Source: Semisulcospira habei (lineage: Eukaryota > Mollusca > Gastropoda > Semisulcospiridae). Taken from it: a stretch of 64,000 nt of DNA. The stretch spans positions 161,036,452 to 161,100,451 of the forward strand of contig BTPG01000007.1 of the NCBI GenBank assembly GCA_036245525.1, written 5' to 3'. The notes under the pieces are model-generated. The model did no database searches, had not been told where the DNA came from, and saw nothing but the letters and a program-made list of their open reading frames with translations. Position numbers and translations under genes: made by a program. Positions 1,736 through 46,900 of this stretch are shown here, piece after piece (positions within the stretch are counted from its first letter, which is position 1; each line of letters begins with the position of its first letter).

Positions 1736-2266
1736 TCAGTTGCGCTCGTAAGGGTACAGAGACGAGCAACAAAGCTGGTTAAAGAATGTAGAAATATGAC
1801 TTACTTAGATAGATTCAAATATTTTGGACTACACTCCATACGTGGACGTAGAATACGTAGAGACTTAATCCAAGTTTTTTAAATTTATAATGGCATCGAC
1901 GACCTAAATTGGAACGACTTTTTCAGTTGCAGCAGTTTTGTGACTGAACCCGAAACTCTGAAGGGAAAATCTGCCGTGTGCGGCATTGCAACACTCTAAC
2001 CTGCGGAAGTTTTGTTTTTCTAACAGAGTTGCCATTGTTTGGAATGAGTTACCAGTTTCATAAAAAAAAAAGCACCTTACTATAAATTCTTTTAAAAACC
2101 AGCTGGACAAATTACCAAAATTTAAAGATTTTCTATCCATAATGAATGATTTACTATAGGAAAATTTGCCGGCATGCCGCATAACGTAATAACACACCCA
2201 TAAAATAATTTTAAAAAGACAGGCCATTTGCAAAGGCCTCGCGGCCTCTTTTGTCCTCACACACAC
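1736..2266 (+). pseudogene. LINE C-terminal fragment, CR1/Jockey-like
   Basis: Conceptual translation shows VQRRATKLVKECRNMTYLDR, followed by RGRRIRRDLIQVF and a broken tail that reads like the C-terminus of CR1/Jockey-type LINE proteins. Several stops are present. Family assignment is from recognised phrasing only. Confidence 0.55.
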
Positions 2267-3587
2267 TACTACTATACTAGTACCACGTTATGGTGATGGC
2301 GAGGATCTAGACGGACGTTCGTGCCCAAGTCACGTGCGTAGACTTAACTAGTTAAAGCTGCAGCCGTCGTAAAAATCTAATTTTCTTTAAAAGTCGATGT
2401 CGAAAAGCAAATAAGACTAAACTCGCACAGAAGACTTACCTCTTACTGTACTCAGTACCAGTTATGCCCTATTTACTGATCTATTATCACTAGAAACAGA
2501 AAAGAAAGAGGTCTTCTTAGCCCGCGCAATTTTTGACGGAAGTTTAGCAGTAAAGGGACATCACTCCGATCAGTCTGGTTATACATCAACATGTATTTGA
2601 ATGGAGTCGGTATATATAGTCAGACCCTTCGTGCCACGTCTTGTAAGGGAACTGCTATTGAGTACCTAGACACAAAATAATCAAGTGTTATTGTTTCGCA
2701 TTCAAGTTGTATTAGTAAGCCGTTTTCCACTGATGATAACACGTCGATTACTTCCCTTGCTACAAGATCGGACTGTCTAAAGACCGTCGAAATAACCTCT
2801 CCTAAGTCAAAATAATCACATAATATTAAGTACTTAAAGTCAAAATAATCTTATATTTGAAGTTTTAGGTGGAATAAAAGTTGTTTACTTAGTGTTAGAA
2901 AGCTTCGAAGGGCTTGTTCTTTGAGCCTCTTGTTCCGTGTTGGTATTTTAGGCGACTTCGCCCAGACCCTTTGTCCCAAACACATCTCGTTCTGTTTGAC
3001 TTTTCACCCATCGATACTGTTTACGGAAGATTTCAATGGACCATGATAATCGGCTGACATTAGTATAAAAAATCACTGGACCATTTCTGAGCTCAAGTAT
3101 GAAAAGTAAAGGAAAAGTTTCAGAGTTCGTTTTTTGAAGGCCGGAACCCAAAACTTATGTTAATACACGATACATAGGGACAATTGAGTAGACTGCTTAA
3201 ATTTTTCTCTTTCTCCTTTCTTGTTGTGGTTGTCTTTGTGGTGGTGGTGGTGGTGGTTGTGTTGGTGGACAATTGCCATTTCAGAAGAGGATTTTTTTCT
3301 GTTTACTGTTTTGAACTGCTTCCAACAATATCATCTTCCTTTCCACTATTGTGACAATTGCAACATAATTGAATATGTATAAGTTACAAAATCTAAGAAG
3401 CACACTGAAAATGGTTTGCATAGAAATTGGTTATGTTGTATTAGTAAACTGTTTTCTGCCAACAATGATTACTTCCCTGTTTTAGGTGCAATGCGTGCCA
3501 TAACAACGGCGTTCTCTGCCTTACATAGTTCCCAAATTTTAGAGGCGTCACCTAACAATGTACCAGTCACAGGAGATGGGTCGACTA
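2267..3587. other. AT-rich DNA with no recognised gene
   Basis: No convincing coding region or structured repeat is seen. There is a short GTGGTGGTGG run near 3240-3260. Confidence 0.5.
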
Positions 3588-3672
3588 TAATAATTCATGG
3601 GTAGTGCCAGATTAGCTTAGAACCGTTAGGCGCGAAGCCAATCTGACACTACCCTTGAATTATCATGGTCGA
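3588..3672. repeat. Palindromic MITE, family 1 (decayed)
   Basis: Arms resembling TTCAAGGGTAGTGCCAGATT and its complement flank a degenerate loop. It is the most diverged member of the family common in the DHX37 introns. Confidence 0.7.
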
Positions 3673-4222
3673 TCCACCTCGTGCTGTGGTGCGTCGGCAC
3701 TAAATTGGTGGTAATATACTGCTCATGTTTACACCCGTTTTTCTTAGCTAGCTGTCGAGCTGGAAAGATCGATCTCTTCCTAGTCAAGTGTCAAGTAAGT
3801 TGGTAACCCACTGGTTGAGGCCGGCATATACATAGTAAACAAAGTTTTTGTTACATTTTTAAAAAAATTGTATTGTAAGGTGTCTCGAGGCGCACATATC
3901 CATTTCAAGATGCTCAAGGCGCCACTGGGATGGACGCTGGAGCTTTGAAAGCCTGCTGCTCAAAGCGCTACTCTATGTACAAACCTCCACCCGCTATTAA
4001 CTTCAGCGCATGCGATATATTTCTGTTTTCATTCCACCGGCCCCAACAGGCCAACTCTTTTCCAATAGTGGTGAGGTGGGATTTTTAATGTCAGCACTTG
4101 ATAATAATGCATAAGGCACACAGACGCACAATCAACCAAACACACACTCTCTAAAGGTTCACTTGCTTCAGTTTTATTGCCAACAACACGCACACAATGC
4201 TGTCTGTTCTCACCTGTCTATC
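3673..4222. other. Unannotated intergenic DNA
   Basis: No gene, RNA or element was recognised. Confidence 0.4.
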
Positions 4223-4232
4223 ACACACGCAT

Positions 4233-5819: not shown

Positions 5820-6690
5820 GAGCAATGTGAGTACACGTTTGAGTCTGTTCCACAGAGTGTAGGTGCGATCGGGACGCAACAGCATGCACGTAGCCTTCCA
5901 GCCCCCGGACTGTTGCGCAGTACCGTGGGTCACCGATGGGGCACCGCTCGGTCAGGTGCTGTTGACGAGTCTCCCCACCTGCGAGATAGATCGCCCTGCC
6001 TAGCCTTCACGGGTGGGTACCTGGGGTGAGACGGCCTGGACGAACCTCGGACTCAAAGCGCACGACGCACCAGCGGCAGGAGCAATGTGAGTAAACAATT
6101 CGAGTCTGTGCCGCAGAGTGCTGGCGCGACCGGGACACAGCCAGCATGCATGTAGCCTTCCAGCCCCCGGACCGTTGTGCAGTACCGTGGACCTGGAGTA
6201 AATGCTGGATCATTGGGGTGCCGCTCGTCAGGTGCTGTTGACGTGTCTTGCCTCTGGGAGATAGATCGCCCTGCCTACCCTCCATTGTGGAGGGTACTTG
6301 GGGTCAGAAGGCCTGAACGGACAAGAGATATTGCCCTGCCTACTCTCCATTTCGCGAGGGTACTTGGGGTCTGTAGCCCTGAATGAACGAGAGATATCGC
6401 CCCACCTACCCTCCATTACGGGAGGGTACTTGGGGTCAGAAGAGACGAATGAACGAGAGATAACGCCCTGCCTACCCTCCATTACAGGAGGGTACTTGGG
6501 GTCAGATGGCCTGGACGAACTTCGGACCTCGGCCTCGAAGTGGACGTGCGCAAGCGTCCAGAGCAATGTGAGGGAACGCTTTCAGTCTGTTCCACAGAGT
6601 GCTTGCGTGATCGAGACACAGCCAGCTTGCACATAGCCTTCCAGCCCCCGGACTGTTGCACTGTACCGTGGATCTGGAGCGGATTGGTTC
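5820..6690 (+). repeat. Triplicated ~110-bp segments and ~75-bp minisatellite in DIRS D ORF1
   Basis: A segment starting GAGCAATGTGAG and running to CAGCCCCCGGACTGTTG occurs three times (about 5818-5937, 6081-6191, 6560-6675). Between copies 2 and 3, at 6257-6510, lie four tandem units of TACCCTCCATTACGGGAGGG-TACTTGGGGTC. Translated on the minus strand the unit reads SDPKYPPVMEGRQG, a DP-containing repeat like those in the other DIRS ORF1s. Confidence 0.75.
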
Positions 6691-7430
6691 GGCGTAAGTA
6701 CACACGTAAGGCTTTTACCGGGTCCTGTTGTCTGGCTTCCCTGTTCGGGTTTATCGCCTTTAGGGGCCAGACAGTGATCACCTGGGGGGCGGACAATGGG
6801 ACTGCGTATTGGCCAGGAAGGCCAGGTCCGTCAGTAGCTGCACAGAGCTGTCCGTCCTGAACTGCAGCAGAGTGTGCCGAAGGCGCATGCAGCTCCCTCA
6901 CTCTGGAGGCCGTGGCAAGGGTGAGAAGAAGCAGGTCTTCTGCGTTATGTAGGCCACCAGGTCAGGGATGTCTTAGCACTTGCCGGGGTCCGAGCGGCCC
7001 AAGGGTCGGGATGTGTCGGCAATCAGGTGAGGTAGCCCCTGATGGTGATCGGTGCCAAGTGCTGCTCGGCAAAGCCAGAGGAAGAACTCGGCCAGCTGTG
7101 GGATGTCCGATCGGTAGGAGCGAGGTATCGGTCATCGCACCAAGACTCCAGGATTCGCCATGTTCCTCCGTAGCCTCGAAGGGTCGAGGGTCTGCGGCCT
7201 GCAGCGATAGCTTCCACTGCTGCACTCGAGAAGCGACTAGCGGTGAGGGTGTGCCCCACCGTCTCCAGGCGTGTAGTAGGAATTGCTCGGGAACGGAAAG
7301 CATGGCGCCTGCCTTGGTTGCTTGAGCTTCGAGCGTGGTGTGGGGGGGAGGGGGGTCCGGTGGCGAGGTTCAGAAGGAGGTGGCTCGGTGGTCCAAGACT
7401 TGATCCATCAGAACGGGCCACTAACAATCA
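6684..7430 (-). pseudogene. DIRS D tyrosine recombinase remnant
   Basis: Minus-strand sequence parallels copy A's recombinase: RFSSAAVEAIAAGRRPSTLR, ILESWCDDRYLAPTD and [11 protein letters not shown]. The homology stops at about 6684, before the H-x-x-R and Y catalytic boxes, so the C-terminal half is lost. Frameshifts are present. Confidence 0.8.
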
Positions 7431-7445
7431 AATTGCGATGCCTCC

Positions 7446-8160
7446 CTAGAGCTTGCGCAGGACCTGGGGGACCAGCACCGTGGACGGGTAGGCAGACGCG
7501 ATGAGAGCTTCACAGGAGAAGGGGAGTGCATCTACTGCCCAGGCTAGGGGGGCCGGGATGGGCGAGACGACGAGGGGCAACTGGCGGTTCCACCTCGTCA
7601 TGAAGAGGTCGACCAGAGGAGACTCCCACGCCATACAGATCATCTGAAAGGTGTCCGGACGTAGTGCCCAATCGGTGTGAAAAAGCTGTCCGGGCCGCGA
7701 GAGGGAGACTGCGAGGCCAAACAGATGTCCAGGAAACTTCTCACTCGGAGAGGGAGGTCGCGATCTGCGCCCGACTGGGGAACATGGTAAAGAAGAAAGC
7801 TGAGGGTGGGGAAGCAAGGCCCGCCCTGCTTCTGGGTGTAGGAGACCACTGTGGCGCTGTTGGAGGACGAGCAGTTCCCGGCGTCCGAGAGTGGTGTCCC
7901 AGGCGAGGAGGGCTTGCCAACTCACGTGCAGCTCCAACAAGTAGAAACATTAGTCCGCGATGTCCGTGGTCCAGCCGCCGGAACCCGGAGAACATTGGCA
8001 GCAGGAGCGCATGCCAGCCAACGCGGCTAGTGTTGACGCAGAGGGACAACTGCGGGGGTGGAGGGAAGAGAGGAACTCCAGTCGCGAGTCATCGGGATCC
8101 GCCCACCGGAGGAGGGAGGGGCAACGGAAGCACTGGCCCTCGAGTCTCGATGTCGCCAGC
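7446..8160 (-). pseudogene. DIRS D RNase H and methyltransferase-like remnant
   Basis: The 164-codon minus frame 7940-7446 contains LELHVSWQALLAWDTTLGRR and [19 protein letters not shown], then AWAVDALPFS, matching the end of RNase H and the following domain in copy A. Upstream pieces to 8160 are frameshifted. Confidence 0.75.
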
Positions 8161-8189
8161 CGAGAGTCGCCAGTGAAGAAGTAGGTACC

Positions 8190-8664
8190 GTTAAAGTGGA
8201 CGAGAGTAGAGATGGCCACGGGGGAGTAGGTCTGCTGCCGCACTCATCAGGCCCAGGAGCTGCAACCACACTCTGGCGGAGACCAACTCCAGTAGAACAC
8301 TAACCGAACCAGGTTCGCCAACTGCCGTATCTGCGGTTCCGGTAGTCTCCCAGGTTGAGGTCCGTCCGGAACGCCATGTCCAGGTGAACGAAGCGGCGGG
8401 AGGGGGTGAGGTCCGACCTGCCCACGTTGACCAAGACGCCAAGTCTGTCGAGAAGGTCCGTCAAGGAGTCTCCATCCTTCTCCAAGGCGGCCGCCAATTG
8501 GTTGCGCCGGGGCAGATCATCAAGGAATTTGAAGGTGGCTCGGGGACGTCCGTTGGGACGCGGCGAGAAAGCCGTCCTCAGAGATGAACCTGTTCCGTGC
8601 CGAGAGGTCGAAGATTGGGAGCCCCGTGCCTCTGAGCTTGGGAACCAGAAGGAGACGGCTGTAT
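8190..8664 (-). pseudogene. DIRS D reverse transcriptase remnant
   Basis: Frames on the minus strand give FVHLDMAFRTDLN and LYSRLLLVPKLRGTGLPIFD-like stretches that align with copy A RT. The YLDD core is missing. The N-terminal end is cut by the 5S rRNA insert at 8665. Confidence 0.75.
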
Positions 8665-8665
8665 A

Positions 8666-8784
8666 ACGCCAACAGCACTTGGTGTTCCCAGGCGGTCACC
8701 CATCCAAGGACTAACCGAGCCCGACGTTGCTTAACTTCGGTGATCAGACGAGAACCGGTGTATTCAAAGTGGTGGGCCATCGGC
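8666..8784 (-). rRNA. 5S rRNA sequence, full length, fused to tRNA (retrocopy)
   Basis: The minus strand from 8784 to 8666 is 119 nt and matches the whole of an invertebrate 5S rRNA, including TGATCACCGAAGTTAAGCAA and the internal control region CTTGGATGGGTGACCGCCTG, ending GTGCTGTTGGC. The 5' end begins directly after the CCA of the adjacent tRNA. It lies inside a dead DIRS, so it is best read as a retrocopied piece, not a 5S locus. Confidence 0.9.
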
Positions 8785-8859
8785 TGGCTCCCCGGCGGGG
8801 AACCGAACCCCGGTCGCCTGCGGGACAGGCGGGAATACTTACCACTATACTACCGAGGA
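8785..8859 (-). tRNA. tRNA-Asp(GTC)-like sequence with encoded CCA, fused to 5S rRNA
   Basis: The minus strand from 8859 to 8788 is 72 nt, the length of animal tRNA-Asp: it begins TCCTCGGTAGTATAGTGG (A box), carries anticodon-loop CTGTCCC with GTC, a B box GGTTCGGTTCC and an acceptor end CGGGGAG. Positions 8787-8785 read CCA, normally added after transcription, then 5S rRNA starts at once. One anticodon-stem pair is a mismatch. Confidence 0.88.
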
Positions 8860-8860
8860 G

Positions 8861-9640
8861 AAGGCCGGGGGGGTCGCCATGCGTAACCACCTTCGAGGCA
8901 TCCTACTGCAACCGCACGGGAATCTCTCCTCGAAGAGCGGCTGCCTGAGCCGGTCCAAAGGGATGGAGTCCGCACAGGGCCGCAACATAGGGGGCGGCTG
9001 GGGATGGGGGCGGGCGGGGACATCCGGTGGCAGGTGCGGGTATCCACGCCTGGAGGACGGATGAGAGGAGGACCTAACAGTCAGTAGGGAGAGAAGCAGG
9101 GCCTGCGAGCGGCAGAACCAGGAGGAGACGAAGCAGGTGGGCCAAAGGTCCCTGTAAGCGTCCTTCACCGTCTGCCAGGCAGGATTGAAGTGTAGCAGTT
9201 CGCAGAAAGGGGCCAGACGTACTGTCTGCGTAGGTGTGGCGGCATCGGGCATGGTGTGGACGGAAGCATGGCAAGCCGCCCGGGCGGCCAGGGCGAAGGC
9301 GAGGACGTCTCCTAACAGCGGAGTGAAACGACGGGCGCCAGGCTTTCTCCACACGAGAGACGAGGGTTTGGGTAACCAAGTCGAGCAATCCTGCACACAT
9401 GAGGGCGTTGCGGAAGAGGGACGCTGTCTAATCCAGACCGGGTGGGAAGCAATGCCACGAAGCGCGAAGTCCATCCGTGTGTAACTGCGCCGGGGGATCC
9501 ACAAGGCCGAGAGTGTCCTCTTGGGGCGGGTAAGTCTGAGGCCGAGGAGTGCAGGAAACAAGGAGCCCGAAGCAGACCTGGTCGCCGGGTGGGGAGCGTG
9601 AACGAACTTGTCCGAAGGCACCCAGAGAAGAACCACAGAA
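8861..9640 (-). pseudogene. DIRS D ORF1 C-terminal remnant
   Basis: A 263-codon minus frame (9636-8848) and its neighbours contain CDLFRKTALMCAGLL-like and LGDVLAFALAARAACHASVH stretches that match copy A ORF1 ([19 protein letters not shown]). Frames are shifted at least once. Confidence 0.7.
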
Positions 9641-10110
9641 GTAACAACAGTTCAAAGCACCCGAGCACAACACACCACCGGGAACAGAGGCTCCAAGTCA
9701 GCGCAGGCACAACCGGCGCAGAACCCTACACAGCCGTAGGGAAACTGCAGAGGACGAACGCACGTCTGCACTACACATCCTGCGCACTAACAGAGAGCAC
9801 CAGAGAAGAAGAAGCACACAAGGAACAACAGTCCAATAGCGCCAGGCAAGGCTGTGAGCACACAGCCGGAACCAAGTCTCTCAGGGCGCAGGGAACACAG
9901 CGCACAACGCCAGCTGGAAGAAGCACACAAGTGGCAAAAGTCTAAGCCTCCAAGGCCAGGAAGAATAACTTGACCAAGTCTCGTAAGTCGCAGGTACAAC
10001 CGGTGCAGAACCATACACAGCCGTAGGCTCAACACTGCAGTAGGCTAACACACGTCTTAACTCCGTAAGCTAAAGGAATAAAACTGGCGTGTCTGCGCAA
10101 GGCAGTTACA
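9640..10110 (-). repeat. DIRS D leader with ~288-bp direct duplication
   Basis: The segment CACAACCGGCGCAGAACCCT at about 9708 and its relative at about 9996 (ACAACCGGTGCAGAACCATA) show a direct duplication about 288 bp apart. No intact ORF. Confidence 0.55.
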
Positions 10111-10535
10111 CGTATGGGTGGGAAGGGAGGCTACCCGGGGTACTGGGTCACGGCACCCTTAGGTTGCCTCCCCTGGCTCTATAGGTACACATCGTAAGTT
10201 TTTGGGTAAAATTATGTAAGCTATAGGATGGTTCCATAAAGTAATGGCATCGGTAATGTTTTTGAAGAAACAAATACTTACCGATGACATTACTCGGATG
10301 ACCCTCCCGCCTGCCGCTAGTCAGCTAAGTAAACAGACTGGCGAGTATCCGGTGGGCAGTGGCTACTCGGGATACTGGCTAGGCTTGTGGCGCCCCTTGT
10401 TGCCTCCCCTGCCACAGGTACACAACCGATTTTTGGCTAAAATTATGCTAGCTAAGACACCATTCCTAACGGTAATGTCATCGCTAAGTATTTTTCAAAA
10501 AAATACATTTTAGAGAAAAATTCATTTTTCTTGCA
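10110..10535 (+). repeat. DIRS D right-side terminal repeats and ICR-like junction
   Basis: A left-type end in reverse (to 10270, ..GGTAATGTTTTTGAAGAAAC) abuts a right-type end in reverse (TACTTACCGATGACATTAC, 10271 onward), the arrangement of a DIRS internal complementary region. The right terminal repeat follows, to about 10535. Confidence 0.7.
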
Positions 10536-10945: not shown

Positions 10946-13900
10946 CTACAAAGAAATAAACAAAGGCAGTGTCAGTACTGGTTTTGAAATAACTCAATAC
11001 ATCCTCTGGATGAAATTATCATTTTCCATAGATATCCTTTCCAGTCTACGTCACAGTTCTGGAGACTGATCAGCCATGATAGTTCAAGGGTGGTGCCAGA
11101 ACAGCTTGGCGCCTGCAGGCTCAAAAACTATTCTGGCACCACCCTTGAACTATCATGGTCAATCCACATACTGTTGTTGCATGTCAGGGTTTTGTGGGTT
11201 GAAAGTCTCCAGAGGCTATCCATAAAACATAATCCAGAAACAGATCAATGAATTATTTGAATTTATCAAATAAACCTAGACAGGTTTAACACATCTGCCC
11301 TTACGACACCACATGAGAAGAATGCCTGTGACAGTTCAATGATAGTCCTAGATGAGCTATCATGGCACTACCCATAACAGTATGAATCGATATATCTCCC
11401 ACAGCTGGTACATAGTCAAATTTGTGAGTTACTATCATGTGTGAAAGAGCTAAAAATTATTTTGAATATCAAAAGTTAGTAACAAACGTTGTGTAGGTGT
11501 GTATCAGCACATACTATTAGCTGCCAACCTCGGGCAGCCTTACTTTTGCTCACACCATTGTATTGTAGAATCCTTTAAAGCAACTACCTTTGTTTTCTCA
11601 AAACACATTACCGATGGTATTACAACTAGGAAATGTTTCTTAGCTAGTCTAATTTTAGCCCAAAAATTGTTGTGTACGATAATGGCCGTGATGGCAGGAG
11701 AGGGGCGCCATAGGTTAGGCGGAAACCCGGTAGCCTCCCTTCCGGTTCAACCACGCATGTGCTCAGTGCTCAAATCACCAGTCAGTTTCTTCGCTAGTCG
11801 CGTGAGGTTGTGTACGCCTGTGGCTCCTTCATTCGTTGGCTTTCGTTCACTGCTTCGACTTTCTACTGTGTGAGAGGGATTGTGGCCTTTGGGCTGGGAC
11901 GCTTTCGTGTGTGCGTTGTTTCGAGAGGACTTCCTAACAACGCTGGTGAGCTGTGCTCACTTTCGGCCGGTCGCCTTCAACTTCTGGTGCCCTTGGGGTT
12001 CGTCCTTGGCCTACCTCGGGGAAGGCCTGGTCGGTGGCGGACGGCGCGTTCCTGGTCTTCTCGTGTGACTGTCGTCTCTGCGCCTAGCACCGGTCCCTTC
12101 GTGGCCGGTCGGAGCGGGTTGGCGCCTTGATAGGACGGCCTCGGGCTTCACCGCTGACACCGCTCTTCGTTCCTCTCCTTTCCCAAACATGGCGAGGTAT
12201 AATCTCGGTCACTGCTTCCGTACGGCGCTCAGGGAGGGTTTGAGCGCCGCACGCCAGCATACGCCGTATCTCCTTCGTTCGTTTCGCGCGTTTCGTTGCC
12301 TGCCGGCTGCGGCAGGTTCGATTACCTTCACATAGATTGTTCTGTTTTGTGTTGCAGTTGGCAAGTCCGCACCTGTATCAGATGTGGACAATTCCAGTGG
12401 CCGAGCGATGGACACGAGGTGTGCCTGCCCTGTTCAACCTGTACATCTTCCCAACCGTGCCTGGTCTGCGCCCCCTGGCGGGAAGAACAATGGAATCAGC
12501 TATGGGGTTTCTACCGTGCACTTCCGACGCCAGCACGTATACAGGGCCATACACCGGTAAGAACCACAGACCCGACTAGTGGGTATTACCTGGTGAGAGG
12601 ACAGTCTACGCCGCGACTTACACCGCGAGCCCGTCCTCCTGGGCCGGCAGCGAACACAGACCCGACTAGTGCGCGCTGTCCGGTAGCAGAAACTAGTACT
12701 GAAGTTTCAGTCAGGCCCTCTTCCTGGAAAAATATAGACACGCCGGTAATCACCACAGACCCGACTAGTGGTGCTTATCAGACGTTAGAACGTTCTCCAT
12801 CGCGACTTCGGTCGCTTGCTCGTTCTACTACACCGGCAGCAGGTACAGACCCGACTAGTGCACGCTGTCCGGTTCCGCCGATCCTTTCGGCGCGAGACAA
12901 AGTACAGGTACAGGCTTCAGTTCCGGTAGCGGTCTCGGCACAGGAGATGCCCGCTTCCCAGCAGAAGGATACTCCTCCTCCACGCATCGACAGAGTTCGG
13001 CGTTCAGGTACGGACCGTTACTCACCTCGTTCCAGAGAGCAGAAGCACCGGACGGTCTCCCGCTCTTCTCGCCATCGTTCACCCTTCAGGGACAGGTCAC
13101 CGCGGCATAGGCATGCCTCCAGATCTTCCCGTACCAGTAGGCCATCGCGGACGGTGTCCGGGGTCGGATCTCCGCAAGTGGTGCGTCGGTCCAGACCGCA
13201 TTCTCCAGCTGTGAGACATTCTACTCGGAGAGCGCGCCAATCGTCTACTCCACCCTCCAGGCCGTCGTCGTCCAGAGGCAGTCGACGCTGCCGCCGCCAA
13301 TCCCGTTCTAGGAGTCCCCGCTCCCGCCGTGAGCCCTCCCCGCGGGGTAGGAGGTCGCCTCGACGCTACACTCATCGTTCTCGCTCTGGGTCTCAAGTAA
13401 CCTCCCCGGTCCGTTCGTGGCGTCACCGCTCCGTGAGACCTTCTCCGGCCAAGGCCTCGGTCACATCCCGGCTCGTCACGGAGGCTGGGCCCACACTCTT
13501 AGCACGAACCGGCCCCACCCACCTCGCTCTGCAATTAGAGGATGACGCGCTCAGCCTTGCGCCTGAGGACTCAGTTTCGGTTTTACTTCGGGACGACAGC
13601 CACGCGCACTCTATCCCGGCGCCCCCTGACGTGGATCAAGATGAGCAGGAACAACATCCGTCAGCAGTGGGACACAGGTTGGAGACTCTGCGTGCCCTGG
13701 ACGAGGCAGCTCGCATCATCTCGGCGTGCCTGCCGCCGGAAGACTGTCCTCCTTCTCCGCCTGCGAAGAAGAAGGCCGCGGCCTATGTAGATGCGGAACT
13801 CCATACCAAGACTTTTAAAACTCTTCCTCAACCTCCGGGTTTCAGCAGCCTACGGGACGCGTTCTCGGCTCGACTCGCGCAGGGACACTTGGGCGCCGCT

Positions 13901-16900
13901 GATTCTTCAATGACTCTAAGTGGCCGGCGGACCTACACATGTTCTTTCAACAATCTTGGTACGCGGGACATACTCAGAGCTTTACCTGCGCACTACCCAA
14001 ACCGGACCCAGCTACTTGGGCCCTGGCGGCGATTCCGGCACGGACCCCTCTGCTTCCAGGAATCGATCAGACAGGTAATCTCATACGCAACGCCTTAGCC
14101 TCCGCGGGATTTCTTGACCTTCTGACGCAAGCCATGGTTCGTCGCGTAGAGGAGGCTTGGCATCCGTCCCTTACGCCGCTGCTGGGGGATCTGCTAGCCC
14201 TGGCCGTCTCTGGTAACCGGGCCTCCTACCACACCTGTGTCAACGCTATGGCTGCGGCGGCCAACTGTGACCTTTTGCGTCGGGATTTCCTCCTCCGCTC
14301 CTGCCCTCTCCCCAATGACCTAAAGCTCCAACTTCGTCAGGCGCCCCTTGGCGGAGAACTTCTCTTTGGCCCCACTTGGTTAGCGGTTAAAGAGGCAAAC
14401 AAGGACACCTGGCCAAGTCGTACAGTACCTACTCCCTTTCAACATACCCGCAGGACCCAGGGTCGCCCCCTGCGGGCGGCTAGACCCGTTTCCCGGCCTT
14501 ACACCAGAGGTGGACGTCTCCCCCCCAGGCCCCCCGCCTTCCCCCGTACCCGTCCCACTGCAGGATCCTCTTCGGCCCCCGTTCCCAGGACCTGGCCCAA
14601 GCCTGCCCGACGCCCCGGGCGGGGCAGGGCCTTCTGACGTTCTCCACCTTCGGGCTCCGTCGACCGCGCTGGGACCTCCGGTCGGCGGGAGGCTCGCACG
14701 GCACAGCGCCGCCTGGCGGGCGCTGTTCCCGGACGACCCCTGGATTCTTTCAACCATCTCCCTCGGTCTGCAGATCTCCTTTCGGTCCCCGCCCCCACTG
14801 CAAAGTACTCCGGCGTGGACCTTGGTTCCGACAGACCAGCTCAAGGCAGACGCTCTGCGCAACGAGGTGACCGCCCTACTTCGGAAAGCAGCGACAGAGG
14901 TGGTGACGCGTCTCGACTCCCCAGCTTTCTACAGCCGGCTGTTTGTAGTTCCCAAGCCGGGCGGCAAGTGGCGTCCTGTGATCGACCTGTCCGCGCTCAA
15001 CAAGTTTATAGTAGCTCCACGCTTTCGCATGGAGACAGCTCGGGCCCTGCGTGCCTCGGTGCAACCCCTCGACTTTGCAATCAGCCTGGACCTCGCGGAT
15101 GCTTACCTTCACGTGCCCATGCACCCAGCGTCCAGACGCTATCTACGCTTCGCCTTCGAGGGTGTGGTATACCAGTTCCGCGCACTTCCCTTCGGCCTCA
15201 ACCTCAGCCCATGGGTCTTCACACGCATCATGGACGCAGTGGTAGCCAAAGCCCGTCGGACCTCCACGAGCCCCACGTCCAACTACCTGGACGACCTGCT
15301 CCTGAAGAATCAGGCCTCTGCCGCCTTGGAGGTGGACCGGGATGCCTTGCTTCAGCTCCTCAAGACGCTGGGCTTCATAGTCAACTTCGGCAAGTCCGAC
15401 CTCGTGCCGTCACGCCATTTCGTCCACCTAGGCATGGAGTTCTACACCGACCGCAATATCGTCCGGCTGCCCGAACCCCGCATTCAGAAGCTGGCGGAAC
15501 TAGCTCGGCAGGTATCCCAGAAGTCTTCGATTCCCGCCAGGCAGTGGCTTCAGTTGCTGGGGCTGATGAGCGCGGCAGCAGACCTTATTCCGTTAGGACG
15601 TCTCTACTCCCGGCCGCTACAGTTGCACCTTCTGCTACACTGGCGTCCGTCGACCTCCGACCTAGAGTCTCCGGTTCCGATTCCGTCGTTGCTCCGTCCT
15701 CACCTTCTACGCTGGGCGGACCCCCTCTGGCTCGCAACAGGAGTGCCGCTGTTCTCGCCACCGCCCTCCCTCTCCATCTGCGTAGACGCGAGCCTCTCCG
15801 GTTGGGGAGCACACCTTCTACCCTCCTTCGAGACGGCCTCCGGCCGGTGGGACCTGGATCTCCGGGACCGACACATCAACTGGTTGGAACTGGAAGCCGT
15901 CTGGCAAGCCCTTCGTGTGTGGGAAGCTCGCCTGCTTCACCGGGAGCTACTGGTGTTGTCGGACAACTCTACGGTCGTCGCCTACATCCAGAAGCAGGGC
16001 GGTACCCGCTCCCCATCTCTCTGCATCCTCCTGTACCAAGTGCTCCGGTGGTGCGAGGATCGGGACATTTCTCTCCGTGCTCGACATATCCCGAGCCACT
16101 TGAATGTGCTGGCCGACTCCCTCTCCCGTCGCGGTCAGCTCCTGCACACCGAGTGGTCACTGCGTCCAGACATCTTTCGGTTGATCGGCGCTGCCTGGGA
16201 GTCACCCATGATCGACCTATTTGCCACGAGATGGAATCGCCAACTCCCTCTGTTCGTCTCGCCGATTCCAGACCACTTGGCCTGGGCAGTGGACGCCCTC
16301 TCCACCTCCTGGGATGGACTGGTCGCCTACGCCTACCCACCCACGGTCCTCATCCCCAAGGTCCTTCTCAAGCTCAGGGGCAGCAACACTATCCTGTTTC
16401 TGGTGGCCCCGTTTTGTTGGACCAGGTCGTGGACGACCGACCTCCTGAATCTGGCGACGACCCCCCCACTACAGCTACCCACTCCACGAACGATGCTCAA
16501 GCAACCGCGGCAGACGCTGTACCATCCTTGTCCAGAACGTCTCCTCCTCCACGCCTGGAGGTTGTCCGGCAAGCCCTCTCCGCTAGAGGCTTCTCAGGTG
16601 CGGCAGTGGACGCGATCGCTACAGCCCGCAGAGCCTCGACCAGACGAGTTTACGAGGGCAAGTGGAGAGTTCTCAGCACCTGGTGTGACGACAGCCGCCT
16701 CTCCCCCACCGAGTTGACAGTCCCTCAGCTGGCGGATTTCTTCCTCTGGCTTTTTCACGACCAGCGTTTAGCTCCCATCACCATTCGAGGTTACTTGGCC
16801 ATGATCGCTGATACTTACAGGCATCTAGGACGTCCCGACCCGGGCGCCTGCAAGGACCTCGCCGATCTGATGGGCCATTTCGGTCTGCATCGTCCCGCTC

Positions 16901-19900
16901 TACGTACACTGCTGCCACGTTGGGACCTACCTTGGGTCCTTACTTGGCTCAACTCGGCCCGTTTTGAGCCGTTACAGCTGGCGAGACTACCGGATGTGAC
17001 GCGGAAGACCTGCTTCTTGCTAGCCCTCGCCTCAGCCTCCAGAGTCAGTGAGCTGCACGCCCTTTCTACTCGCCCCAACTGTTTACAGTTCCGGACGGAC
17101 GGTTCGGTGCAGCTGCTTCCCGACCCGACCTTCCTAGCCAAGACCAGACCTCCACTAGTGGCACCACTACTGGTCACCATACTACCTCTCAGAGAACCAC
17201 GCTCCGATCGAGAGTCCCGGCAACAGGACCCAGTTCAAGCGTTACGTGTGTACCTGCGCCGGACCAAGCCCCTCCGCAGGGGACGCACCCGCCTTTTTCT
17301 TCCTCTGTCCCCAGGTAGAAACGACATCTCAGCCCAGACTATATCCTCCTGGCTTCGGTGGGTGATAAGATCCGCCTACCAGGAACTCGCCCCTGATGCA
17401 GCAAAACGCATGAGGATCAGGGCGCACGAGATCAGAGCCATGGCCACGAGCCTCGCATTCGAACGCAACTGTGCGGTCAAGGACATCGTGGCGGCTGTGG
17501 GCTGGCGAACAGAGAACACCTTCGCTCGCTTCTACCTGAGGGACCTCTCCGGCCAGCGGCAGAACCTAGCGCTGGTGGGAGACATCGTGGCGGCGCAACA
17601 CTCCCTCCCGGCGCCCTAGGCGCCATAAGTATCTTCACTAAAATTAGAGGGAGGTTGCTTGGGGTGGACTCTTCTAGTAGCTTCGATGGCAGGGGTAGGG
17701 GCGGTTAGCGGCACCCACCTCCTTTTCGGGATTCTTCCTAGTTGTAATACCATCGGTAATGTGTTTTGAGAAAACAAACGTATTTTTCTTTAAAATAAGT
17801 TTTTTTGAAAAATACTTACCGATGGTATTACTCGAAGGTCCCTCCCACCTGCCCCGCTCGCCGCTGCTCCGCTAAGAAACTGACTGGTGATTTGAGCACT
17901 GAGCACATGCGTGGTTGAACCGGAAGGGAGGCTACCGGGTTTCCGCCTAACCTATGGCGCCCCTCTCCTGCCATCACGGCCATTATCGTACACAACAATT
18001 TTTGGGCTAAAATTAGACTAGCTAAGAAACATTTCCTAGTTGTAATACCATCGGTAAGTATTTTTCAAAAAAACTTATTTTAAAGAAAAATACGTTTTTT
18101 TTTTGCACTAAAGTGGTTTTTAACAAATTACATCTTGAGGCTGAGTTTTTTTTTTTTTAATCCTTACTGTCCTATGAAGGCTACATTTCAAATCAGGAGA
18201 TAAATCAGTTATTTTACTTCAAGGGTGGTGCCAGAATAGTCTGGCACCTCAGGCGCCAAACTATTCTGGCACCACCCCTGAACTAATATAGTCAAATTTA
18301 TTTCAAGCAATAATGTATCAAGATGAAAAGGGTTAAAGACAGGTGTTCTCCCATGAGACGCTTTGAAGGGGACGAAGAGTCACCTGTCGTTAAAACTCTT
18401 CCACGCACGCAGTCAAGAAAACCTGACCTCTAAGCAGCGCACATCGGTGTACCCCATAAACGCACACCAATCTGTGGAGCGGGCGTGACGTAAAATACTC
18501 AAAATTCCATTTCCCAAGACTACTTTCTGGACCCTTCCAACTATAATGTACTTCTACTAAAGCTGAACTGTTTCCATTCACCCCTGAATGAAAATAAATG
18601 GAAGGAACAGAGTTACATCAGGGACATGTAGCATAGCAAATACAACAAACATTTAGTTCTCCATTCCTCAAGTATCACTTATCACCACCCACACCAGCAG
18701 TGATAGTGTCCGTCTAAACCAGTTACCCCAATTTATCACATCTGACAAGGTTTATAAACATCTACACACTCTAACACTGGTACCACGAGAAAGATAGATA
18801 CAGAAATAGTATGAGAAGAGGGCTGTGTGGGACTGGGCAAGTTTTCCTGCCTGTGTGCGCACATTAGAAGTCATGAAAACTTGACCCACACATTAGAAGT
18901 CATGAAAACTTGGCCGCGTGCACATGGAGGTTGGCTGCCGTGCGCAGAAGAGTTAAACATCATCATTTAGATGGTCCTTAATGACAAGTGATCTCTCTCA
19001 CGGTTGTCGCTCAATACTAGTTCTGCTGTAATGATACCTATACTGAGCTCAGTATGGGAATTTAATCCTTTGAACCCCAGGGTCTCATTTCCCAAATTTT
19101 GGAGGTGTTACCTAACGGCAATGTACCAGCTGCAGGTGATGGATCGACCATGATAATTCAAGGGTAGTGCCAGATGAGCTTGGCGCCTTCAGGCACTAAG
19201 CTCATCTGGCACTACCCTTGAATTATCATGGTCAATCCATCTCCTGCTGTAGGGCGGTGGGGCTAAATTTTACCAAGAACAAAAGACTTCTCCATGGCAT
19301 GGGTGAGTCTAATGTGCATGAATAATGGAGTAAGTACGCTGGTGCTCCCTAAAGACTCACATTTGGGGTCTTGTTCCCATGTGGCCGTCAGAGAGCTGAG
19401 GGAATCCACGCCATGGGCCACTAGCGCTTTGAGCAGTACCTCTGTCCTCGGCTGCAGCCTGCAACCAAACAAACTCAGGGACATGTACAACACTGCAACA
19501 TGCATGCTGGTCTGTGATTTTGGACCTGTCAGCCGTAAGGTCCAAAATCACAGACCAGCACACCTATACCCCTTAAGTTTCCACAGCCAAACAGCTTTTA
19601 TTTCATGAAAACTGAGCACGTGGTGTGAGAACTGGAAGAACAAGCAAGAATGATGCTGATTAGTGTTACAGCTAGCTTAACCCATTTAGCCCCGAGTTCC
19701 TACAGCAGGAGATTGATTGACCATGCTAATTCAAGGGTAGTGCCAGATTAGCTTGGCGCTCGAGGGCGCCAAGCTAATCTGGCACTACCCTTGAATTATC
19801 ATGGTCAATCCACCTCCTGCAACTGGTACATAGTCATTAAGTAACAATTCCAAATTTTTTTAATGCACTCGTGTGGGTGAAAGGGTTAACCATTTGGCTG

Positions 19901-40900: not shown

Positions 40901-43900
40901 CGTCCAGCGGGAACCGTAAGTCCCGCCCGCAGGAGAAGGGATGTCCAACCCCTCCGAAGTCCGGGGAACTCCGGCCGGCGGCGATTCAACGAAGGCGGAC
41001 CCCGCACTTGGAAGGAACAACGTAGTCTCAGGGGGCCGCTCCCCCGAACGGTGGCGATAACTCGGAGCGCCTGTCTTTGCCTTGCGTAGCGAGCCATGGA
41101 ACTGGGACGGCGTCTCCTGTTCCTCTCGTACCCCTGGTTTCTGTGAGGTGCGCACCTGCTTCCGAAGGGAAACTGAAGATCATGAGCGAAGGCCGGAACC
41201 CGGATCCCATCGTGAGGTCGTCTCTTCTGCACTGCATCTAGAGCGGCTCTCGTCTGCATGGTCGGGGCGAGGCGTGGCCCAACATCACTGAGCCGGGATC
41301 TTGTAGTGCGAAGTGCAGTGGTCCTGTAGCCCTTGCGGTCGCCACAAGCCATAGCAAGCTGGTGAATAGCCCGGGCGAGGGCGCCCAACCTAATAACAAA
41401 AATAAATTAATCAATGCTTAATGCATGAGCACTATTTGATTGTAATTGCCCTTAAGGGATAATCAAGTTATTTAATTAAATTAAAATATGAGAGACAGAA
41501 TACCCCTCTGTTTTCTCATCTCTATTTCCCAAACTAAAGAAATCGGTTTAGAGGTTCCAGGAATCTAACCTTGTAAGGATAAGAGGTGTCGCGTCCCAGC
41601 GGCCTGGCGAACCGCTGAGCCGCTGGGAAAGCAACCTTTTAACCCCTGTGTCGCGCACCACGATAAACGTACATACTCATACGTGTTCGCTACTGCGCCC
41701 ACATGCTCTCACAGACACTAGTCACTGTCCTGAGTCTGAGAAGCCGAGCAGTTGCTTCTGCGTGTCCTGTTTATGAATTGTCGTCTGGCCCGGGACTGGA
41801 AGCATCGTAAGTTCGGTAGCCGACGCCAGCCCTCCGCAGTCAGCGACTACAAGCTTACTGGGCCGGGACGCCTAGGTCACTGCCGTTGACATGGGCCCCA
41901 CCTTGTTGCTCTGTCCACCTGTTGCTTGTCCACTCTGGCCTGCGGAAGGACAGTGGAGCGGGCCACTCTTGAGGCCGGGTCCAGTGCCGGTGGAAGAATC
42001 AGTGGTTTAGCCATTCAAGTAGAGGTTGTCAGCTACCTCTCCTGCTGACAAGAGCCCAGAACAAGGAATCTTGTGCTTTACTGGTCCGGGACCACCCTGG
42101 GTCCCACCTTAATACTCTTGGGCGTCTCTGTCCGGCGATCTCTGACAGACGACATACTCTCTCTGTGGGACAGCCAGTCACTGCTTCTGACTTGGGTCCC
42201 CTTTGTTACTCTTGGGCGTCTGTCAGGCGAGCTCTGATAGACGCCGAACGCTCTCTGAGTGACAACTTGCCGACCTGTTTACCCCCTGGGTGCCGTCAGT
42301 GTACTTTCAACTGACTAATGTGTACTTTGGACTCACATGTGTATTATTCACAAGCCAGTGAGTTGTCCATATCTCCAAAATGTGTATTTTGTGTATAACG
42401 TGTACATGTATGTGTACCCCAAGCAAAATAGTGTACTTCAATACGCCGAATGTGTATGGTAAACAGGTCTGAATAACCAAGCCACTAAGGTAGCAACGCA
42501 ATTTAGTAATATTTAGGTAAATATCCCTTGTCAATAGACAAACAGAGAATCAGCCACTACTTATCTCTTTCGTAGGAGGGGTGTGGCAACCAAGCCACTG
42601 CTTCCGTGTCCACGATCTCCGATAGGCGTCGCACGCTCTCTGTGGGACCGCAAGGCCACTGCTTGTGCCCTGGGTCCCACCTAGTGGCTGTCAGGCGTCT
42701 CTGCCCGGTATCTGATAGGCGTCGCACGCTCTCTGTGGGACAGCAAGGCCACTGCTTGTGCCCTGGGTCCCACCTTGTGGCTGTCAGGCGTCTCTGCCCG
42801 GTATCTGATAGGCGTGGTACGCTCTCTGTGGGGTAACAAAGCCACTGCTCTGGCTTGGGTCCCACCTTGTCACTGCCAGGTGTCACTGCCCGGCGACCTG
42901 ATAGGCGTGGTACGCTCTCTGTGGGACAACGAAGTCCCTGCTTGTGACTTGGGTTTCGCCTTGTTACACTCTGACATCAGTGTCCGACGATCTCTGATAG
43001 GCGTCGTACGCTCTCTGCGGGACAACGAAGTCCCTGCTTCTGACTTGGGACCCACCTTGTTCATCTCGGACATCCATGCCCGGCGATCTCTGATAGGCAT
43101 CGTACGCTCTCTGCGGGACAACGAAGTCCCTGCTTCTGCCTTGGGTCCCACCTTGTTAACCTCGGACATCAATGCCCGGCGATCTCGGATAGGCGACGTA
43201 CGCTCTCTGCGGGACAACAAAGTCCCTGCTTGTGACTTGGGTCCCACCTTGTAAATCTCGGACATCAATGCCCGGCGATCTCGGATAGGCGTCGTACGCT
43301 CTCTGCGGGACAACGAAGTCCCTATCTCTGTGCGGGACAACGAAGTCCCTGTTCCTGACTTGAGGCGTCGTACGCTCTCTGCGGGACAACGAAGTCCCTA
43401 TCTCTGTGCGGGACAACGAAGTCCCTGTTTCTGACTTGGGTCCCTCCTTGTTAATCTTGGGCATCTCTGTCGGACGACCTCTGATAGAGTTGTACGCAAA
43501 CGGCGGTAAAGCCCCCCAGCTTTAACCATCTCTCTTCCAGTCATGTGGCGGACACCTCACCAGTGCGGGTCGACTCGCATCCTGCTCAGGGAAGGCCCTC
43601 CGCATGATCGTCCGAGGGGCCCTGAAAGTCGCCACACATCGTGCAGATACGAACCTAGTTACTGCAACAAGAGAGTACAAGATGAAAGAGCGAGCGTGGC
43701 CTCTAAGGTCACGCAATAACAACGCGCGCGCGCTGGCGAATCGGACATAATTGAATATGTAGTCGAATCAAACGAGTGTACAGCGCGTGCCGACGCTCGG
43801 CGCTCCTTCCCACTCAAGGGCGCCGGTCGAGGGCATTCACCGAGATATTACCTGGCCATGGCGGAAAAAGGAGCAAACCCACGTATCACCATATCGTAAC

Positions 43901-46900
43901 AGCACGCCACACGGCACGACCGGGTAGGCACGCAGGCCGAAGCAGCGTTCGGAAGCCGCAAGTCACAGTCTCCATGGTACAAGCCGTCGGCGCGTAGAAC
44001 CCACAGGTCGACGAGGCGTCACAGCGTGAGCACTACTACCAGCAGTCACGCCACAATCTCCACAGGTCAAGTTCCAACGAACTAACAGTCAAGGTCGAAC
44101 ACGACCGGCCAAGAACCAAAGCGGAGCTCGAACAGACACAACCTACTTCTGCCAGCTAAGAACTCAAACTGGGGTATGCTGGGTAATCTTGTACCGGATG
44201 TGAGTAAGGGGAGGCTATTCGGGTTTGGCATGGTCTATGGCGCCCCACTCCTGCCAACACCCCCTTATACGGACACAACCAAAACTTGGCTAAAATTAGG
44301 CTAGCTAAGAGCCATTTCCTAAGTGTAATACCATCGGTAATGTGTTTTGAGAAAACAAATGCCACTGATCGATATGCCTTTCAAGCGGGTAGCTGTGGAC
44401 CTGGTGGGGCCAATAATTATCCCCTCCAAGTGAAGATGGTCATCGCTACATTTTGACCCTGGTGGATTACACTACGCGTTATCGAGAGGCCATACCATTG
44501 AAGAAGATCGACACTCCAACAGTGGCAGAGGCGCCCGTCGATATGTTCAGCCGTTTGGGGATTCCTGAAGAGATCCTGAGTGACCTAGGAACTCACTTCA
44601 TCTCCGACTGCATGGAGGAAGTCAACCGGCTATTGAGCATCCGACACCTTACTACCACCCCTTATCACCCCATGTGAAAAGTTTAATGGAACGTTGAAGG
44701 CTATGCTGAAGAAACTGTGTGCTGAACAGCCAAGGGATGTGGCATAGATATATCAATGCCTTGCTCTTCGCATACCGTGCCTTTTGAATTACTGTACAGT
44801 AGAACTGTAAGGGGGTCCATGCACATCCTGAAGAAGCTGTGGACCAAGGATATCGACGCGCCTGAGGTGAAGATCAGCTACCAGTACGTCTTCGACCTGA
44901 AAGAGAAGCTGGAAGATACGCTCAGGATGGCTCGAGAAGAACTGGGGAAGGCGCAGAACAAAGGGAAGCATTACTATGATCATATGGCGAAACCTCGACG
45001 ATTCCAGCCAGGTGACCAGGTGTTGGTTCTTCTTCCTACCGACAACAACAAACTCCTGATGCAGTGGAAGGGACCCTACGTTGTCGACACGGTGGTTGGC
45101 ATCAACGACTACAGAGTCAAGGTCAACAACAAGGTGAAGACTTACCATGCTAATCTGCTGAAGAAGTATATTGAGAGAGGTCGTCAAGACAAAACACAAC
45201 TGGCGGCATCTTGCTGATGACGAAAGACTAGACGACGAGAACCTGTTTGACCTTAATGAACTCCGCCACAAGGAGGATGTAGAAGACATCCAGTTCGGTC
45301 AGAATCTGACCCAGACTCAACGAGAAGAACTGCGTGTCCTGACTCAAGAATTCAAGCATCGGTTTACACCTGACCCAGGAACAACAGACACCATCCAGCA
45401 CGAGGTTAATCTGACGTCGAATGAGCCAGTTCGCAGCAAACCTTATCGCCAGTGGCGCCACTCTCTATCTCTGGACCCTGAAATTTCTTTTTCTCTTCCT
45501 ATTTTCTTACCATGTAACCTATCAATTAGGCATCTTGAAATCCTTCCCCCTCCGAGAGAGGTCCCGAAGGTGTGACCCTGTCCAGGTGCTGGTCCAGCCT
45601 ACGGCAGTAGGGCGCTCTCAACTCCGAGGGGGGATCCCCTGCTTCTGCCGCCTGGGTCCTCTTATTGCCAGGAGGGCTTCCATTTGACCCAACGAAAACT
45701 CTGCGGAGGGACCGAGCTCTCAAAGGCCTTACTAATCATAGGGTGGCGAACCCCTGCCTGGCCTATTTCCCTTTCTGTGGATTGAAGGGTATAAATGAGC
45801 TCTTGGTGCTGTGCGGGATGGCGAATCCCTTCGGCTGCTAAAGGCTCAATCGTCTGCGCAGGACAAGGCAGCTCTGCACAAGGCACCGGAGGGGGCAGCA
45901 GGACCCTTTTGCGCCGACAAACACACGATGTCTGAATTGCCTTTCTTTGTTTCACATTCAAAGGAACGGACGCACTCTGCGCGCCGGCCTTTCTCCCTGT
46001 AAAAGGCCCATAGTTGTGATCAACCGTCTGAAATTTCATTTCTTTGTTTCACATTCAAAGGAACGGACGCGCCCTGCATGCCAGCCTTCTCCCTGTAAAA
46101 GCCCCATAGTCGTGACCAACGGTCTGAATTGCATTTCTTTGTTTCACATTCAAAGGAACGGATGCGCCCTGCGCGCCGGCCTTTCTCCCTGTAAAAGGCC
46201 CATAGTTGTGACCAACGGTCTGAATTGCATCTCTTTGTTTAAAATTCAAAGTAACGGATGCACCCAGCGTGCCAGCCTTTCTCCCTGTAAAAGGCCCATA
46301 GAGTGACCCACGGTCTGAATTTGCATTTCTTTGTTTCACATTCAAAGGAACAGACGCGCCCTGCGCACCAGCCTTTCTCCCTGCAAAATTACACATCACT
46401 AGGCCACTGGAATTCGCCACACAGGGCGCAAGTCCTCACATGAGCACTGTAACATAAGACAGACATAGGCCTTGCATGTGCTCGGAGCCTCAAGGAGGGT
46501 CCGAGTTCCCAACCGGTCGCGTACATACAAATTCGGAAAATTCAGAGAATTCGGGAAATGCCGTCACCCGGTCAAACGCCAGCTGAGGCAATAACCGAAG
46601 CTTTACCTGTCCATGCCTTGAATACAGAATCACAAAACAGAATAATCCTTGTTTCTTTTTCTTTTCTTATTTTTTTTAATTTTTTTTTTTTCCTTCCTTA
46701 ACAGGACCAAGAATCACACAAGTAGAGTTCACACAGTCCAAGGTCGGAGCACGAGGTGCACACGACCGTCCTAACTGAGCTAAGCAAAGTCACTGGTGGG
46801 AAAGGGTGAGTCCGCTACCGGATACGGTAGCACGGGAGGCCACTCGGGGTATCCGGGCTATGGCTCCCCAGTGATTGCCTCCCCTCGTATGAGGAACACA

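Follow-up and report, generated by a model that had tools for sequence, protein, structure and literature searches.

Dicistronic tRNA-5S genes of Yarrowia are functional host genes, and tRNA and 5S rRNA have also given rise to SINEs, such as the fruit-bat SINEs and AmnSINE1. In LINE-1 chimeras, by the account in passages of the paper describing them, 5S sequence is typically antisense and truncated, and tRNA sequence is mostly half-length and antisense (PMC13174262). Passages on the TRIMp3 elements Cassandra (5S), Ajax (5S) and Helenus (tRNA) place the small-RNA sequence within the LTR, attribute it to SINE insertion and describe conserved promoter motifs (PMC10886601, PMC10853983). The word 'DIRS' is absent from the main texts of these three papers, and no DIRS element carrying tRNA or 5S was reported among the matches listed in the literature searched.

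Here we analysed a stretch of 64,000 nucleotides from the gastropod Semisulcospira habei (hereafter the window), where a tRNA-Asp, CCA and 5S rRNA had been predicted end to end on the minus strand, an arrangement that sequence, Rfam and ARAGORN all bore out (Table 1). No base intervenes at the joints between tRNA, CCA and 5S, and Rfam scores of 42.8 bits for the tRNA and 91.5 bits for the 5S (positions 8784-8667, minus strand; E 2e-18) exclude chance for both. The insert (hereafter the module) ends at position 8664 (minus strand), and the sequence of the surrounding DIRS-like element restarts with TAC at 8663. The 5S of the window lacks one A, giving an insert of 196 nt, while undamaged copies have 197 nt. 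Compared with the host gene, the window tRNA carries A37C, G41A and A58G (linear positions 37, 41 and 57).

Table 1. Features of the module and of the DIRS-like elements in the window.
Feature	Position	Strand	Evidence
tRNA-Asp(GTC), full length, 72 nt	8859-8788	minus	Rfam tRNA 42.8 bits, E 9.8e-06; ARAGORN
CCA	8787-8785	minus	sequence read; absent behind host tRNA-Asp genes
5S rRNA, nt 1 to 3' end (GGCGTTA)	8784-8664	minus	Rfam, copy comparison
DIRS-like D family, part upstream of insertion (ends ..GGCCTTC)	8860-9526	minus	family comparison
DIRS-like D family, part downstream of insertion (starts TACAGCC; RT-derived)	6676-8663	minus	family comparison
RT-core deletion junction of D family	8509-8552	minus	comparison with DIRS A
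D element, left part	9602-10276	minus	family comparison
DIRS A, relative with RT core, without module (site ..CTTTC|TACAGCC)	11589-18099	plus	comparison, RVT_1

We take these elements to be DIRS-like, a label carried over from the original prediction and from general background, which would rest on inverted ends and a reverse transcriptase (RT), the recombinase match being weak. Reading 20 copies over 10 kb gave a family element of ~6.2 kb with inverted ends. In one of these elements (L020), an inverted match pairs -3170..-2963 with 2989..2783, and inner inverted matches lie within 2649-3044; in our reading these would correspond to the ITR and the internal complementary region of the DIRS order. 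The DIRS A ORF matched RVT_1 (E 1.3e-21), and Pfam RT domains were present in the proteins nearest to its RT. Among the 120 such proteins listed, none bore a DIRS label, and the few named entries came from animals, as uncharacterised proteins, apart from one of bacterial MAG origin; the best named relatives belong to two gastropods (Batillaria, 63% identity; Littorina, 44%) and a starfish (Patiria, 40%). A search for a tyrosine recombinase in one DIRS A frame returned Phage_int_SAM_4 (E 0.0075) and SAM_5 (E 0.079), both below cut-off, and the DIRS B frame searched had no match to this domain. Within the window, two DIRS-like copies (11589-18099 and 53049-59542) are ~97% alike and lie in opposite orientation, and tandem arrays with a unit of 96 nt (partly 93 nt) stand beside a DIRS-like element (42098-43511, 45930-46416). 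The window also holds, within 3505-52691, a MITE-like family of palindromic repeats built around GGCACTACCCTTGAATTATCATGGTC, with 20 places in family D3, and a MITE-like 66-nt palindrome family that opens with GCAAGAGGCATAGATCC.

The module had been placed between ORF1 and RT, but it is located within the RT reading frame (..PAF|YSRL..), its point of insertion in the D family falling exactly between F and Y of the DIRS A frame (window 11589-18099). The 197-nt insert breaks this frame, and the upstream RT frame runs into the TAG of the tRNA. The D family also has no counterpart of DIRS A 15010-15258, a stretch that includes motif A (LDLADAY). This loss is a deletion separate from the module insertion, and relatives with an empty site have it too. 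In the window copy, a further ~1.8 kb of upstream element is gone between 9526 and 9602.

The genome assembly (1.98 Gb) was searched using a 281-nt query made of the module and ~40 nt of flank on each side, and the best 40 of 1577 candidates were scored, so that copy numbers of the module are lower bounds. We found at least 27 copies, including that of the window, with both flanks full or nearly full; the remaining 13 of these best 40 matches contained 5S only. For 20 of the 26 copies outside the window we read 10 kb of sequence, and for the other six 0.7 kb; the 20 belong to one DIRS-like family. The position of the module was identical throughout (27/27 copies), and the tRNA-5S join was kept in 26 of 27, the exception (L044) having lost it by an internal deletion larger than those in L039-L043. 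CCA was intact in 19 of the 26 joined copies, the others reading CCG (4), CTA (2) or ACG (1). The RT-deletion junction was present in 25 of 27 module copies; the exceptions are truncated (L027) or further deleted there (L028).

A search using the RT flank returned, as the best 40 of 4310 candidates, 23 copies already found and 17 new relatives. Nine of the new relatives had the empty site GGCCTTC|TACAGCC or one near it (two read GCCTTA|TACAGC), six had larger deletions with the 5S 3' end alone left, one was a damaged module (L076) and one had lost the site (L080). Given the empty relatives, the insertion removed nothing, contrary to the suggestion that the module replaced a few hundred bases. 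The RT-core deletion common to the filled copies was already present in seven of the nine empty relatives, while the other two (L083, L085) kept RT-core sequence that is two bases short relative to DIRS A at motif A. Since the deletion is found in seven of nine empty relatives and in 25 of 27 module copies, the likely order of stages, as read from these copies, is an empty site with the RT core still present, an empty site after the RT deletion, a filled site in RT-deleted elements, and finally loss of most of the module. By this reading, the family would have lost its RT core, and hence would have been non-autonomous, before the capture. A flank tree was poorly resolved and did not cleanly split filled from empty copies: four empty copies fell within the smallest clade holding all filled ones (support 0.589), and the truncated L027 was misplaced. 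Alignments read by eye showed a common deletion of the tRNA and most of the 5S in L070, L072, L081 and L084, and another shared deletion of the tRNA and most of the 5S in L069 and L071. The four loci of the larger group sit on four different chromosome-size contigs, and therefore elements without most of the module seem to have multiplied too, or may have been duplicated by other means.

Position 58 carries m1A in many mature tRNAs, and reverse transcriptases misread modified tRNA there. Searching with a 72-nt tRNA query that has the usual A37 and A58, we obtained 41 matches among the best 40 of 65 candidates, of which 22 were host-type (at 21 loci) and 19 were members of the family; at least 11 host tRNA-Asp genes among them matched the query at 100%. 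From 20 of the 21 host-type loci we obtained 21 tRNA sequences, all with A58 (21/21), none followed by an encoded CCA (0/21) and nearly all with a four-T run within 20 nt (20/21). At position 58 of the module, L018 alone has the A of the host; the other 26 of 27 copies read G (24), C (1) or T (1). In the oldest lineage (L026, L027, L041, L042), position 58 was altered in all four copies, G41 was host-like in all four and A37 was host-like in two, and the founder tRNA thus seems, from these copies, to have been unlike the host gene chiefly at the m1A58 site. By our own arithmetic, the chance of a single change landing on position 58 is ~1/72. Because A58 is the one tRNA position altered in nearly every copy, the oldest lineage included, the sequences suggest that the template tRNA was mature and modified, an argument built on this one site. 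Passages of a study in which m1A58 was detected by misincorporation name m1A58 for other zebrafish tRNAs and m1A9 for tRNA-Asp (PMC11417395). All modules but L041, where a deletion affects the site, retain A9 (26/27); a trace was therefore not left by every modified base. Host tRNA-Asp genes also cluster on the contig that contains the window (G000:C7:120.91-121.10 Mb), and L068 (G000:C4:144671300-144671900) has a tandem pair of tRNA-Asp-like copies that share the tail ggacacatttttttttt.

The host 5S array (L034) extends at least over C3:173064127-173078656, and the original prediction had pointed to such arrays as the place to look for linked tRNA-Asp-CCA. No tRNA was present in three sampled units of ~500 bp, and as far as these units go we rejected displacement from an array that links 5S and tRNA as the origin of the module. 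The module joins RNAs that are unlinked in this sample and shows a post-transcriptional feature in the unencoded CCA, with the change at A58 as a putative second one. The proposal of reverse transcription across two mature RNAs gains support from the CCA missing in the host genes, the exact ends and the departure at A58.

We then read the surroundings of the 13 matches with 5S only, a set found by likeness to the module 5S and not random; eight lie in mobile elements and two in the array, three (L032, L036, L037) being left unassigned. Five loci (L029, L030, L033, L038, L045) belong to another DIRS-like family with a 120-nt 5S copy in the gag region, followed by the A-rich stretch taaaagaagaaaaaa, and a sixth (L035, the same as L047) carries its 5S within a different DIRS-like copy, the site showing no evident loss. 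At L031, the same as L048 (G000:C1:9832000-9837500), a 5S is flanked on one side by a DIRS-like RT and on the other by a Penelope-like ORF, with RVT_1 below and GIY-YIG above cut-off. This locus is a three-part chimera in which 1852-4228 holds the DIRS-like RT, a full 5S and a 488-aa open Penelope-like GIY-YIG ORF, in sense orientation. At L046 (G000:C1:51133550-51134050), 5S from nt 4 on is joined in frame to the putative start of an RT that we take, by its motif, to be Penelope-like; the joined sequence had no Pfam match. Besides the module, 5S was captured independently four times, in the gag-site family, at L035/L047, at L031/L048 and at L046, each time by a DIRS-like or Penelope-like element. 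Including the module, all five captures are sense to the element (5/5; one-sided sign test 1/32, our own arithmetic), and all start at 5S nt 1 except L046. Literature searches combining Penelope, 5S and template switching gave nothing useful among the matches listed.

Together, these observations make it probable, to our minds strongly so, that an RT jumped end to end over two mature RNAs and that the product was then amplified passively. An enzyme acting in trans would have reverse transcribed the RNA of an already RT-dead DIRS-like element, since a family without an RT core would need one from elsewhere. This RT would have left the element RNA at one point, probably a break, and a broken template would explain why nothing is missing at the site. 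It would then have switched to a mature 5S rRNA at its 3' end and copied it to nt 1, moved on to the CCA terminus of a mature, modified tRNA-Asp, copied the whole tRNA with a misreading of m1A58, and returned to the element RNA at the following base, which would leave an exact 197-nt insert. The chimera, being non-autonomous, would then have amplified and carried the module along as a passenger. As two of the 5S captures touch Penelope-like sequence, an RT other than the DIRS-like one may be responsible. The right-hand edge could partly reflect microhomology, the 5S 3' ends and the target sharing GGC-TT. A broader generalization, which we offer tentatively and hold to be somewhat doubtful, is that DIRS-like and Penelope-like RTs repeatedly patch broken templates end to end with mature 5S, once with tRNA and 5S, and that the copies record host RNA maturation and base modification (CCA, m1A58) at the time of capture.

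Passive amplification has to be weighed against adoption of the module as a working pol III promoter that aids transposition, as in Cassandra, Helenus and Ajax. The original prediction held that both pol III promoters were present, and the module does contain the regions of the A and B boxes and of the internal 5S promoter, in a family that reached at least 27 copies after the capture. Yet the B box has lost A58 (G58 in the window) and no four-T run follows the module, making the presence of both promoters doubtful on this reading. Across 21 copies, median identity was 0.90 for the tRNA, 0.92 for the 5S and 0.90-0.91 for the flanks (medians were used, the mean downstream identity being lowered by truncated copies). 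Changes per site on internal branches were alike in module and flanks (0.162 versus 0.168, p 0.91; 19 of 21 copies, L021 and L011 left out), as they were in a second set that leaves out seven truncated or rearranged copies (0.127 versus 0.101, p 0.33; internal/terminal p 0.25; 14 of 21 copies). An apparently slower evolution of the module (p 0.013) was caused by the misaligned flanks of L021 and L011 and was gone without them. In-frame coding exaptation was likewise rejected: frame 0 runs open across the module in some copies, but the insert is 197 nt long, the tRNA contributes a TAG and the RT core is missing. As the module drifts at the flank rate and derivatives without the tRNA and most of the 5S exist in groups of four and two copies, it looks like a passenger, apparently drifting with its flanks and not a new working gene, and we regard adoption as a promoter as very unlikely.

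The original prediction had also entertained a founder or member of a tRNA-5S SINE, which would have entered the DIRS-like element via a LINE and hitch-hiked. SINEs derived from tRNA and 5S are known, according to passages of the LINE-1 study (PMC13174262), and a tRNA followed by a 5S would supply pol III boxes. However, no module was found outside the family: the 40 module matches (best 40 of 1577) divide into 27 with family flanks and 13 with 5S only, and the 41 tRNA matches (best 40 of 65) into 22 host-type and 19 family members. With neither a tail nor a target duplication seen among the matches listed and in the empty-site comparison, a site without loss and no SINE body, we consider a SINE origin extremely improbable. 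Capture could instead have occurred at the DNA level, with a double-strand break in a DIRS-like copy taking up a free tRNA-5S cDNA. Insertions of free cDNA into double-strand breaks are known in principle, and pasting would not need the element's RT, but an RNA-to-RNA jump would be required anyway; the sense orientation of five out of five independent 5S captures, the site without loss and the sense chimera of DIRS-like, 5S and Penelope-like sequence (L048) also argue against it, leaving it little probability. Ligation of broken element RNA, tRNA and 5S by an RNA ligase, followed by ordinary reverse transcription, would yield joints just as exact as those of template jumping, and likewise in sense orientation. 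The end of a mature tRNA is CCA-OH, however, and suitable end chemistry would be needed at three consecutive joints, so that we also rate ligation as very improbable.

Template jumping over two mature RNAs would mean that end-to-end jumping is preserved here, outside LINEs, as a fossil in multiple copies that represent successive stages, and suggests that captured tRNAs may carry a readable trace of ancient RNA modification. It is also a warning for tRNA and 5S annotation, as good-scoring ARAGORN or Rfam matches may be retrotransposon baggage. Like the Yarrowia genes, the module has a tRNA directly upstream of a 5S, but it differs in its intervening CCA, the lack of a T-run and its decaying copies. 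It shares tRNA and 5S parts in mobile DNA with the fruit-bat SINEs and AmnSINE1, but is without free copies, tail or target duplications among the matches listed. As in TRIMp3, described in passages of two papers as non-autonomous retrotransposons carrying tRNA or 5S sequence (PMC10886601, PMC10853983), a small-RNA sequence rides in a non-autonomous element; here, in contrast, the element is DIRS-like and holds an internal tRNA and 5S with CCA, ~3 kb from each end and not inside an LTR, the ends being inverted and not direct repeats. Promoter conservation by selection, a TRIMp3 trait, is not seen here either, the module as a whole evolving at the flank rate. LINE-1 chimeras, as passages on them describe, are likewise small cellular RNAs joined by RT to retrotransposon cDNA in one event, whereas here tRNA and 5S are full length, sense, end to end and internal in an amplified DIRS-like element (PMC13174262). 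As far as these passages go, the present case works like the LINE-1 chimeras and resembles TRIMp3 in outcome only.
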